34,825 nt of DNA from Bacteroidota bacterium (GTDB lineage: Bacteria > Bacteroidota > Bacteroidia > Flavobacteriales_E > Vicingaceae): assembly GCA_016183805.1 (NCBI GenBank), contig JACPDX010000014.1, forward strand, positions 1-34,825. The letters are read 5' to 3'. This document shows, one piece after another, positions 14,805-17,348 of this stretch. A program made the position numbers and the translations under genes. Under the pieces are notes generated by a model that saw nothing but the letters and a program-made list of their open reading frames with translations, did no database searches and was not told the DNA's origin. Each line of letters begins with the position of its first letter. Position 1 is the first letter of the stretch.

Positions 14805-17348
14805 TTGAACAATAATCTACTCGATACCAAAATTGAATTTTTAAAAGGAGTTGGTCCTGCCAGAGCCGAATTGCTTCAACAGGAATTGGGTATTTACACT
14901 TTTGGTCAATTGTTGGAGTATTACCCTTTTCGTTACGTTGATAAATCTAAAGTGTACAACATTTGTGACATCAATTCCGACCAAGCATACATCCAGCTAA
15001 AAGGTAAAATTACCAATATTCAAATTATTGGCGAAAAACAAGCCAAACGAATGGTAGCCATGTTTAAAGACACCACCGGAGAAATTGAATTGGTGTGGTT
15101 TAAGGGCATCAAATGGCTGTCGTCCTCTTTAAAAATTAACCAGGAATATGTGCTTTTTGGAAAACCAACTTTATACCGAAACAATTACAACATTACTCAC
15201 CCCGAATTAGAACCAGTGGAGCAATCTTTAGTAGCTAATTCGGTAAGTTTAGAAGGCGTTTATTCTACTACCGATAAACTTACCAACAAAGGCTTATCTG
15301 CCAAAGGAATTCATAAAATTCAACAAAATTTAATTGCACAGATTAAAGGTTACATACAGGAAACGTTACCTGATGAATTGTTGGATAAACTCCATTTAAT
15401 GCCTAAAGAAGTTGCTCTAATTAATGCTCATGCCCCGGAAAATGAACAACAATTACAACGGGCAGTATTTCGTTTAAAATTTGAAGAATTATTTTTCCTT
15501 CAACTTCGATTGTTACGTCAAAAAGTGATTAAAACACAAACCTTAAAAGGGTATGTTTTTAATGCTGTTGGAGAAAATTTTAATACCTTTTACAACAACT
15601 ATTTAGCTTTTGAATTAACCGAAGCTCAAAAAAGAGTAATTCGGGAAATCCGTAAAGACATCGGTTCTGGAAAACACATGAACAGGTTGTTGCAAGGCGA
15701 TGTTGGTAGTGGTAAAACTGTGGTGGCTTTATTAACTATGCTAATTGCTATCGACAATGGTTTTCAGGCTTGTTTGATGGCTCCAACCGAAATTTTGGCA
15801 ACCCAACATTATTTGGGTTTAGCAGAAATGTTGAAAGACATGAACGTAACCATTGAATTGTTGACCGGCTCAACAAAAAAAGCAAGACGAACAGAAATCC
15901 ATTCGGATTTGTTGAATGGAACATTAAAAATTCTTGTAGGAACTCATGCTTTGTTGGAAGATGTGGTACAATTTAATAATTTAGGTTATGTGGTGGTGGA
16001 CGAGCAACACCGTTTTGGAGTAGCACAACGAGCAAAACTTTGGGCGAAGGACAGCCCCTCCAACCTCCCCGAAAGGGAGGCTTTAAAAAAAGTGTTCTTT
16101 AAATACCAGACTGCTCGTCCATCTACTTATGCGTTACTTAAAGCCAATCAACAAGAACGAAAAAAACAAACTACTGAAGCAGAACAAGTATTGTGGGAGA
16201 ATTTAAAAACAAAACAACTAGGCACAAAATTTAGACGGCAACATATTATTGACGAGTTTATTGTTGATTTTGTTGGTTTGGAAAAAAAATTGGTAATAGA
16301 AGTTGATGGAAAATACCATAACTCAAGCGAACAAATTGAAGCTGATAAAATGAGAACACAAATTCTCGAAGAATTAGGTTTTAAAGTAATTCGATTTACC
16401 AACGAAGAAGTTTTGTTAGATATTGATAATGTTCTAAAAAAAATTACAGAAGCTACGAACTCCCTCCCCTTCGGGGAGGGTCGGGGTGGGGCTCTAATTC
16501 CTCATGTATTAGTAATGACTGCAACTCCAATTCCTCGGACTTTAGCAATGACTTTTTATGGTGATTTAGATATTTCTATAATTGATGAATTACCAGCAGG
16601 AAGAAAACCCATAAAAACCATTCATAAATTCGATTCATCTCGATTGAGAGTGTTTGGCATGATGGAAGAAGAAATAAAAAAAGGCCGACAAATTTATGTG
16701 GTTTATCCATTGATAAACGAATCGGAAAAAATGGATTACAAAGATTTGATGGATGGTTTCGATGCTATTTTACGCCGTTTTCCGATGCCACAATACCAAG
16801 TTAGTATTGTTCACGGACAAATGAAACCCAAAGACAAAGAATTTGAAATGCAACGTTTTGTAAAAGGCGAAACCAATATTATGGTTGCCACCACTGTAAT
16901 TGAAGTAGGGGTAAATGTGCCCAATGCCAGTGTTATGGTTATTGAAAGTGCCGAACGTTTTGGTTTATCGCAATTGCACCAGTTGAGAGGTCGGGTTGGT
17001 AGAGGTGCTGAACAATCGTATTGTATTTTAATGAGCGGAAATAAATTGAGCCCCGAAGGAAAATTACGCCTCGAAACAATGGTAAGAACCAACGATGGTT
17101 TTGAAATTGCAGAAGTTGACCTTAAACTTCGTGGACCGGGCGATATACAAGGTACACAACAAAGTGGTTTGCTTAATTTAAAAATTGCCGACCTAGCCAA
17201 AGACGGACAAATTTTACAAGCCGCACGCACCGAAGCTGTAGAAATTTTAAAAGAGGATGCCAACCTGCAATTGCCCAAACATTACCGTTTGATAGAAGCC
17301 TTGAATACCATTAAGCGAAATAAAAAGAATTGGAGCAGAATTTCTTAG
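14805..17348 (+). CDS. recG: ATP-dependent DNA helicase RecG with an in-frame DUF559 nuclease insert
   Basis: RecG reverses stalled forks and processes branched DNA and R-loops. The wedge domain is N-terminal (helix-hairpin-helix-like 'EFLKGVGPARAELLQQELGI'). The helicase core has Walker A GDVGSGKT (298-305), motif II DEQH (399-402), TATPIPRT (from 572), and 'QLRGRVGRGAEQSYC', with the C-terminal RecG region intact. The start is TTG at 14805: an in-frame stop lies two codons upstream and the first ATG is near residue 83, inside the wedge domain. Residues 417-563 are foreign: a DUF559 (Vsr-like) nuclease domain flanked by peptides encoded by inverted repeats. Without them the protein is 700 aa, the usual RecG size, and reads LWAKD-LIPHVLVMTATP without a break. 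The frame is open throughout; whether the helicase works with the insert cannot be seen. Confidence 0.96.
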   Translation: MNNNLLDTKIEFLKGVGPARAELLQQELGIYTFGQLLEYYPFRYVDKSKVYNICDINSDQAYIQLKGKITNIQIIGEKQAKRMVAMFKDTTGEIELVWFKGIKWLSSSLKINQEYVLFGKPTLYRNNYNITHPELEPVEQSLVANSVSLEGVYSTTDKLTNKGLSAKGIHKIQQNLIAQIKGYIQETLPDELLDKLHLMPKEVALINAHAPENEQQLQRAVFRLKFEELFFLQLRLLRQKVIKTQTLKGYVFNAVGENFNTFYNNYLAFELTEAQKRVIREIRKDIGSGKHMNRLLQGDVGSGKTVVALLTMLIAIDNGFQACLMAPTEILATQHYLGLAEMLKDMNVTIELLTGSTKKARRTEIHSDLLNGTLKILVGTHALLEDVVQFNNLGYVVVDEQHRFGVAQRAKLWAKDSPSNLPEREALKKVFFKYQTARPSTYALLKANQQERKKQTTEAEQVLWENLKTKQLGTKFRRQHIIDEFIVDFVGLEKKLVIEVDGKYHNSSEQIEADKMRTQILEELGFKVIRFTNEEVLLDIDNVLKKITEATNSLPFGEGRGGALIPHVLVMTATPIPRTLAMTFYGDLDISIIDELPAGRKPIKTIHKFDSSRLRVFGMMEEEIKKGRQIYVVYPLINESEKMDYKDLMDGFDAILRRFPMPQYQVSIVHGQMKPKDKEFEMQRFVKGETNIMVATTVIEVGVNVPNASVMVIESAERFGLSQLHQLRGRVGRGAEQSYCILMSGNKLSPEGKLRLETMVRTNDGFEIAEVDLKLRGPGDIQGTQQSGLLNLKIADLAKDGQILQAARTEAVEILKEDANLQLPKHYRLIEALNTIKRNKKNWSRIS
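16053..16080 (+). repeat. Left terminal inverted repeat of the recG insert
   Basis: It begins AGCCCCTCCAACCTCCCC and ends GAAAGGGAGG. Internally it forms the hairpin CCTCCC/GGGAGG. It is translated as Ser-Pro-Ser-Asn-Leu-Pro-Glu-Arg-Glu. It is G/C-rich in a strongly AT-rich gene. Confidence 0.88.
16461..16493 (-). repeat. Right terminal inverted repeat of the recG insert
   Basis: The reverse complement begins AGCCCCACCCCGACCC and continues TCCCCGAAGGGGAGGG. It matches the left repeat apart from small indels and substitutions. The internal hairpin CCCTCCCC/GGGGAGGG (16462-16480) is perfect with a TTC loop. It is translated in frame as Ser-Leu-Pro-Phe-Gly-Glu-Gly-Arg-Gly-Gly-Ala. Confidence 0.88.

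Follow-up and report, generated by a model that had tools for sequence, protein, structure and literature searches.

In-frame DUF559 nuclease elements with palindromic ends in recG and other genes of Bacteroidota: probable homing-type elements that are translated through

Selfish genes residing in coding sequence are generally assumed either to be spliced out, as introns and inteins are, or to be small, passive palindromes. Here, we analyze an in-frame element that carries a nuclease domain of the DUF559 family between palindromic ends and lies inside the recG gene of a Bacteroidota bacterium of the family Vicingaceae (assembly GCA_016183805.1). The gene is located on a stretch of 34,825 nucleotides (contig JACPDX010000014.1, positions 1 to 34,825), referred to as the window in the following. 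Palindromic elements that are inserted in frame into unrelated genes and translated have been described in Rickettsia (Rickettsia palindromic elements, RPE); according to a review, these are about 150 bp long and code only for a conserved peptide (PMC10969869). The element in the window shares with the RPE the palindromic nature and the in-frame position, its translation being suggested by the open frame and by selection, and scars found at other sites (see below) resemble RPE-like remnants. It differs from the RPE as described there in being 441 bp long and in containing a full nuclease domain instead of a short peptide only.

Further described systems resemble the element in other respects. 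With the homing endonuclease I-Bth0305I (PDB 3r3p), for which a review describes a target almost 60 bp long and extended regions that bind DNA (PMC3943268), it has in common the nuclease fold, a sequence relationship and site-faithful spread. I-Bth0305I is, however, labelled a mobile intron protein in the PDB, whereas the element analyzed here is an internal domain of a host protein with palindromes of its own. Repetitive extragenic palindromic (REP) sequences and REPINs are short, GC-rich palindromes that form inverted pairs and occur in many extragenic copies, and the RAYT transposase connected with them is a Y1 HUH enzyme. GC-rich palindromes, inverted pairs and many stand-alone copies are likewise present in the window's genome, whereas the enzyme of the element is a PD-(D/E)xK nuclease, and its nuclease-bearing form occurs in coding frames as well as alone; no Y1 HUH (RAYT) transposase was detected in the element, to which only nuclease models match, the rest of the genome not having been searched for RAYT. 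The ShiLan-type insertion in phage methylase genes is unspliced, keeps the host frame open, is patchily distributed and contains a homing-type nuclease; in the available part of the report this is an HNH nuclease that has a start of its own in another frame, while the host frame encodes a peptide that is not a nuclease (PMC11855218). The present element differs in that the nuclease is encoded in the host frame; the ShiLan-type insertions reside in phage genes, and terminal palindromes are not mentioned in that part of the report. The same Pfam domain is found in the Caulobacter protein VsrA, on which, as reported, the SOS response of cells without a cytosine methyltransferase depends, suggesting an active nuclease (PMC12907096). 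VsrA differs in being encoded by a stand-alone gene, with a role in mismatch repair proposed in the same report. No description of in-frame DUF559 elements was found in the open-access literature, most subscription journals lying outside this search, and none of the papers on DUF559 that this search covered concerns a mobile or in-frame element as judged by title and beginning of the abstract. The family of such elements in Bacteroidota is large and apparently undescribed. It may be a variant of the homing-type elements, with a class of its own as a further possibility.

As stated in a preliminary description of the window, the element comprises exactly 147 codons and starts on a codon boundary (14805 + 3 x 416 = 16053), begins with AGCCCC and ends with GGGGCT, and has both ends translated in frame (Table 1). 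Its removal leaves the 700-residue RecG given there, which is otherwise complete by its domains. The wedge, DEAD, Helicase_C and RecG_dom3_C domains (Pfam) flank the insert on both sides, and the protein scores 690.5 against TIGR00643 (cut-off 659.4), identifying it as RecG. Within RecG the element is located between helicase motif II (DEQH, residues 399-402) and the TATPIPR motif (residues 572-578). The terminal inverted repeats of 28-33 bp with hairpins that had been proposed were found in part: the ends are inverted and form GC-rich hairpins, but the repeat is not a clean one of that length, its ungapped match covering 24 nt at 83% identity. The right-end palindrome belongs to the same repeat family as solo copies elsewhere in the window's genome. 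A structural model of the fusion protein, suggested earlier as a way to look for a surface-loop insertion, reached a mean predicted local distance difference test (pLDDT) value of 76.7 and a predicted template modelling (pTM) score of 0.54, and both junctions (residues 417-422 and 558-562) stayed below a pLDDT of 50. These low-confidence junctions would suit a tethered domain and are no proof of it.

Table 1. Coordinates of recG and of the parts of the in-frame element in the window.
Feature	Position	Strand	Remarks
recG open reading frame, host gene	14805..17348	+	847 aa; TTG is the first possible start; RecG structure 1gm5 is the top match of the structural model
Whole in-frame element	16053..16493	+	441 bp; RecG residues 417-563
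Left terminal palindrome AGCCCCTCCAACCTCCCCGAAAGGGAGGCT	16053..16082	+	hairpin at about 16064-16080; codes for SPSNLPEREA
DUF559 (PF04480) PD-(D/E)xK nuclease domain	16140..16454	+	RecG residues 446-550; acids D488, E499, D501
Right terminal palindrome CTCCCTCCCCTTCGGGGAGGGTCGGGGTGGGGCT	16460..16493	+	hairpin at about 16462-16480; codes for SLPFGEGRGGA from 16461

The DUF559 domain is recognized in the window RecG with 108.4 bits (gathering score 20.6) and an E value of 2.1e-31, which places it in the family; no further DNA-binding domain beside it was seen in the Pfam scan of this protein. The conservation claimed for D488, E499 and D501 was borne out. Their columns are invariant in an alignment of 49 elements (A3), and the three acids are retained in 105 of 105 in-frame elements, in 103 by pattern and in two by eye. 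When the 147-residue element was modelled by itself (mean pLDDT 83.9), its closest fold match was 3hrl (Z 15.3, root-mean-square deviation (rmsd) 1.4, 93 aligned residues). I-Bth0305I (Z 11.9, rmsd 2.6, 95 aligned) and Vsr (Z 10.1, rmsd 2.3, 100 aligned) matched as well, and the TnsA transposase reached a Z of only 6.8. I-Bth0305I was also matched by sequence (E 2.6e-6). The catalytic fold is that of I-Bth0305I and Vsr, as in the EDxHD/Vsr-like homing endonucleases. Judged from dN/dS ratios of 0.13 for the element and 0.07 for the recG host (19 usable of 435 pairs of recG genes with the insert), the nuclease is under purifying selection. An internal start yielding a free nuclease was also considered. 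Within 45 codons ahead of the nuclease core, an ATG is present in 49 of those 97 in-frame elements that have the motif (it is missing from 8 of 105) and in 18 of the 20 stand-alone genes with the motif (21 of 41 are without it); this candidate is weak, since the 45-codon stretch takes in host codons.

The distribution of the insert in RecG was surveyed in the window's genome and 30 relatives; 30 of these 31 genomes have a RecG match. In what follows, G with a number denotes a genome (G000 is that of the window) and L with a number a locus. An insert present in the RecG of the whole class, which would mark an old fixed domain, was not found: only two of the 30 genomes are filled, G000 itself and G001. 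Empty RecG proteins have a short loop between DEQHRFG and MTATPIPR, typically SKLWKKN-x-IPPHVLV. In six relatives whose motif was missed by the pattern, the recG frame spans about 702-736 codons and leaves no room for the insert, and in G026 the frame is long yet the loop is empty. In the family as a whole, the insert is present in recG of at least six of 46 genomes, and in one other genus in seven of 150 genomes (147 with a match). All seven genomes of this genus with recG frames of at least 844 codons contain it, and at 34 other recG loci of the genus the loop measures 15 residues in 33 cases and 23 residues in one. Most RecG genes examined have the short empty loop, so that the defined site is empty in other alleles, as for homing endonucleases. 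An alignment with relatives, proposed earlier to reveal the empty site, thus yielded the empty short loop; a precise junction did not emerge from it. On a RecG tree computed with the insert left out, in which 30 of the 86 proteins are filled and 56 are empty, the insert state changes 12 times, and at least eight of these changes are forced by starred branches. Beside filled lineages, unusually long empty RecG loops are seen at L010, L011, L013 and L231; their length is suggestive, at most, of eroded scars.

The element has many relatives in other genes. Only one count is fairly even, that of a PF04480 search across the 46 genomes of the family, in which 22 genomes contributed 47 matches. Of the matches above 80 bits, eleven have host frame at either end: six in recG, two in leuS and one each in ileS, metH and tsaB; a twelfth in-frame match (L069, in a methyltransferase-like frame with 1102 and 114 codons on its two sides) was excluded by its score of 68 at the cut-off of 80 bits. 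When 395 genomes of the phylum were searched with a profile, 186 had matches, and the best 80 of 577 relatives from a scan of named genomes are by taxon label all from Bacteroidota, with the exception of one from Paceibacterota. The search for further copies that had been suggested was productive: the non-redundant domain rows number at least 156, with at least 105 in-frame elements, at least 41 stand-alone genes, at least seven terminal fusions and at least three domains at contig edges. The in-frame set is not evenly sampled, having mostly been gathered by a profile of in-frame elements; at least 104 of its members are distinct (L161 and L190 are identical), and in 103 the frame extends for 60 codons or more in either direction. 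At least 22 host protein families are affected: RecG, IleRS, LeuRS, ValRS, MetH, HsdR, TsaB, a SpoIIE-type phosphatase, CoA-transferase III, methylmalonyl-CoA mutase, UvrD, an M23 peptidase, a WecB-type epimerase, urocanase, an ABC ATPase, an AAA_11/12 helicase, Ham1, acetyl-CoA synthetase, a DegT aminotransferase, poly(A)/CCA polymerase, MazG and GH31. These names rest on family models for at least one representative each and on clustering and motif for the remaining members. In all 10 genomes tested for it, no frame other than the interrupted leuS exceeds the leuS cut-off, and the same holds for the interrupted ileS in seven of seven; in three further genomes ileS is uninterrupted, and in G023 leuS runs off its contig, a fragment elsewhere being perhaps its tail. 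The fused LeuRS and IleRS are presumably functional, since the interrupted gene is the only copy. Phages are seemingly not the main vehicle, as relatives on phage contigs share 27-53% identity: among the best 80 of 103 such relatives, one at 53% lies near a contig end and the others range from 27 to 50%. In Prevotellaceae/Prevotella metagenome-assembled genomes (MAGs), DUF559 domains of the same lineage are found at the N-terminus of longer frames (L143, L154 and L155); these terminal fusions form one clade of the tree.

The end hairpins of the window's own element have, as DNA, energies of -6.3 and -9.1 kcal/mol, with z values of only -2.05 and -1.75 against shuffled sequences, and the argument from palindromes therefore rests on the comparison of many elements. 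Among the 103 in-frame elements flanked on each side by 60 or more codons of frame, 42 have a stem of at least 6 at both ends, compared to 50 of 409 single control segments from the same genes, and 63 have an inverted match of at least 8 between their ends, compared to 19 of 103 control pairs. GC hairpins on both sides were also found for 18 of 39 stand-alone genes (3 of 148 single control segments). An absence of inverted repeat pairs around other DUF559 copies, which would have weakened the initial claim, is thus not what is observed. Hairpin-centred 33-mers are open in all six frames in 36 of 125 cases, compared to 7 of 206 controls, a moderate trend that GC content may partly explain. In the window's genome, 17 solo copies of the repeat were found at up to three mismatches and none with the reversed control pattern; two of them lie in frames open for at least 40 codons on both sides and 15 do not, and several form inverted pairs with a short spacer in the manner of REPINs. 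Besides the tsaB scar described below, solo palindromes lying in frame within long open reading frames were noted at L354 and L357 of this genome (contigs C15 and C37). In the family, the repeat was found in 10 of 46 genomes, six of the 10 with an in-frame element versus four of the 36 without (Fisher p 0.003).

The initial reading as a mobile, selfish element is supported, as there is evidence of movement for several copies, though not for the window's own copy relative to that of G001. In G025, a near-identical element is present in two diverged SpoIIE-type paralogues. Five of seven 60-nt segments are 97-100% identical between the two copies, and the remaining two are at 82% and 87%; beyond the element, the adjoining conserved motif is 75% identical and the hosts then 32-56% (the left end of one copy lies off its contig). 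One metH gene (L137) contains two element copies with 83% identity, which group as sisters in the tree (support 89), and its close relative L163 has the first copy only. Furthermore, codon differences were counted at conserved residues in the 435 filled recG pairs. After Bonferroni correction, five pairs show significantly lower divergence in the element than in the host and none the reverse; L168 and L198, for example, differ in 2 of 147 element codons and 128 of 689 host codons, and two Tenacibaculum species in 16 of 139 and 211 of 680. Horizontal spread into the same site across species, as known from homing endonucleases, is thus seen in these five pairs and not in the window's own. The excess of element identity along the gene ends near the element borders. 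On the nuclease tree, the clustering by host site greatly exceeds chance: the host-site label changes 37 times, versus 99.5 times after shuffling, and the recG label three times versus 27.7. The recG-site nucleases form one starred group that consists of 30 recG elements, one from a recG cut by a contig end and one nested urocanase element. An element at the Bacteroidota leuS site was also noted in another phylum, in the Candidatus Paceibacterota MAG DeMMO2_19 (L158). Compared with the sampled leuS of Bacteroidota, which reach medians of 52-58% among themselves, its leuS is at a median identity of 36%; a misbinned Bacteroidota contig therefore appears unlikely from sequence comparison.

In-frame insertion, a patchy and largely site-specific distribution, some recent horizontal movement, arrival at new sites and a conserved active site are observed. 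We consider it probable that the element is an autonomous, homing-type selfish element that is unspliced and translated through, sometimes reaches new genes and decays in frame. Its unit would be a Vsr/EDxHD-like DUF559 nuclease flanked by a pair of inverted, GC-rich palindromes; the whole continues the host frame on either side and, in the window, occupies a RecG loop. As no intein or intron parts were detected, the element is most likely never removed; the host protein would be made with the nuclease tethered by palindrome-coded linkers, and the promoter and ribosomes of the host would produce the nuclease. Spread would be largely site-faithful, the nuclease presumably cutting the empty allele and repair copying the element in; the movement itself is seen, and its site fidelity would best be explained by homing. 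Occasionally a new gene or site is entered, perhaps via the palindromes. Decay would proceed by deletion of the nuclease part, leaving an in-frame palindromic peptide, and palindrome pairs without a nuclease are present in other DNA. Tolerated loops of essential single-copy genes would hide the element from selection and make its frame-breaking removal costly.

In this way, an active-looking nuclease element would persist as a domain of RecG, tRNA synthetases, methionine synthase and about twenty other proteins. It would be a candidate engine for the in-frame palindrome problem, would account for odd multi-domain annotations in Bacteroidota, and would provide a natural catalogue of loops tolerating a 150-residue insert as well as compact nucleases of possibly high specificity. 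The full, scarred and empty states of one site in related species make insertion, homing and decay directly testable. The chances appear evenly balanced for a wider proposal, namely a non-splicing class of autonomous mobile elements that spreads as an internal domain of essential proteins, homes across species into one and the same loop of a gene (once seemingly across phyla, L158), occasionally jumps to new genes via its palindromic ends and leaves in-frame peptide fossils, RPE-like palindromes being maybe the remains of nuclease-bearing parents.

Several observations weigh against the interpretation as a homing-type element. Repair during homing should co-convert the flanks, but such tracts are short or missing, with host identity falling within about 10-25 codons. 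No target-site duplication was seen in L137/L163, L072/L073, L200/L207/L228 or other filled/empty pairs, pairs that are too diverged to exclude one, and none close enough to fix the junction was found; between L200 and L207 (86-88% DNA identity) two codons are replaced without duplication. The window's element and that of G001 are no more alike than their host recG genes, and the same applies to L046 and L047. At the amino-acid level, distances between recG elements are correlated with those between their hosts (Spearman 0.74), so that much of the recG set may be vertically inherited. The five significant pairs represent three independent groups, three pairs coming from one trio, and the second metH copy absent from L163 could have been lost. 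Site fidelity is not strict, as the leuS and ileS sites hold several lineages with six label changes each. The repeat and the element do not always occur together (4 of 10 element genomes are without the tested repeat, and 4 of 36 element-free genomes have it). Finally, the trees were quick ones, and the nuclease tree had few columns.

The main rival to homing, or else a second mode of the same element, is transposition driven by the palindromes, given the weak co-conversion of flanks and the many palindrome pairs that lack a nuclease. The nuclease would then nick or cut its own end hairpins, much as RAYT transposases are said to do with REP sequences, the element and its palindrome pairs without a nuclease would insert in many places, and the recurrence of sites would reflect only loop tolerance and inheritance. 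Palindromes at both in-frame and stand-alone copies, the solo repeats of the window's genome (15 of 17 outside long open frames, several in REPIN-like inverted pairs), the new genes and sites reached, the sharply bordered horizontal signal and the several lineages at the leuS and ileS sites would all fit. This explanation has difficulty, however, with the clustering of nucleases by host site and with the entry of recent cross-species transfers into the same site, and the solved structures that best match the nuclease belong to an endonuclease-like protein, to a homing endonuclease and to Vsr, with TnsA far behind. We therefore regard transposition without homing as unlikely, while taking it seriously.

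The single nuclease group at the recG site and the correlated host and element distances could also reflect an accessory RecG domain that became fixed long ago, was passed on vertically and has been lost on many occasions. The patchy distribution within genera, the presence of related elements in at least 21 other host families and copies moving inside single genomes make this very improbable. The element synonymous divergence far below that of the host in five pairs from three groups also argues against it, and a constraint at the DNA level as its cause conflicts with the median synonymous difference over all filled recG pairs, 0.68 for the element and 0.72 for the host. Slightly less probable still is an adaptive fusion in which the nuclease aids RecG on branched DNA. 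Both proteins act on DNA and the nuclease appears to be under purifying selection, but most RecG genes examined have no insert, and the idea that helicase and nuclease jointly process branched DNA is not favoured, because elements of this kind recur in tRNA synthetases, methionine synthase, urocanase and further enzymes that do not act on DNA. The least probable explanation is a spliced element, either an intein or an intron with an incidental open frame, since the continuous frame, a host function presumably kept, the homing-type nuclease and the Ser with which many recG elements, like some inteins, begin are outweighed by the absence of intein domains from Pfam scans of 24 interrupted proteins (E <=1e-3 for that of the window, <=1e-8 for the others), by the absence of Rfam intron families at E <=1 in 15500-17000, where the one match lay below its gathering score, and by recG element ends that are Gly-Gly-Ala-like and not the His-Asn of intein junctions.

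For the homing-type element proposed here, candidate products of decay were found at other sites. In tsaB of the window's genome, TDSLPFGEVQGGV is located in the loop in which tsaB of G041 holds a full element, and tsaB of G001 contains in the same loop SIAFGEGWNDA, seemingly a degenerate version. Among 30 tsaB loci surveyed (26 measurable), the loop measures, besides G000 and G001, 21-25 residues at 22 loci, 27 in G045 and 31 in G049. A solo palindrome is likewise present in leuS of G041 at a second site, where other genomes have the full element. The tsaB palindromes of G000 and G001 are, by their sequence and position, probably in-frame scars of a lost element. The tsaB of G049 (L372) has in this loop a different short in-frame insert, ACTERSRS.

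Two minor observations concern other elements. In the window, a gene for a protein of the 23S-rRNA-intervening-sequence type (PF05635, 26269-26613) is located directly behind tRNA-Gly(gcc) and tRNA-Leu(taa), and no inverted repeats were found around it. At L067 and L068 (contig C181 of G037 and contig C172 of G041), frames that are bioF-like by eye contain in-frame copies of another short repeat (RQGDMSPCYG / QGVSTPCYGG), with a DUF559 domain at their C-terminal end; this may be a second kind of in-frame repeat in this bacterial family.

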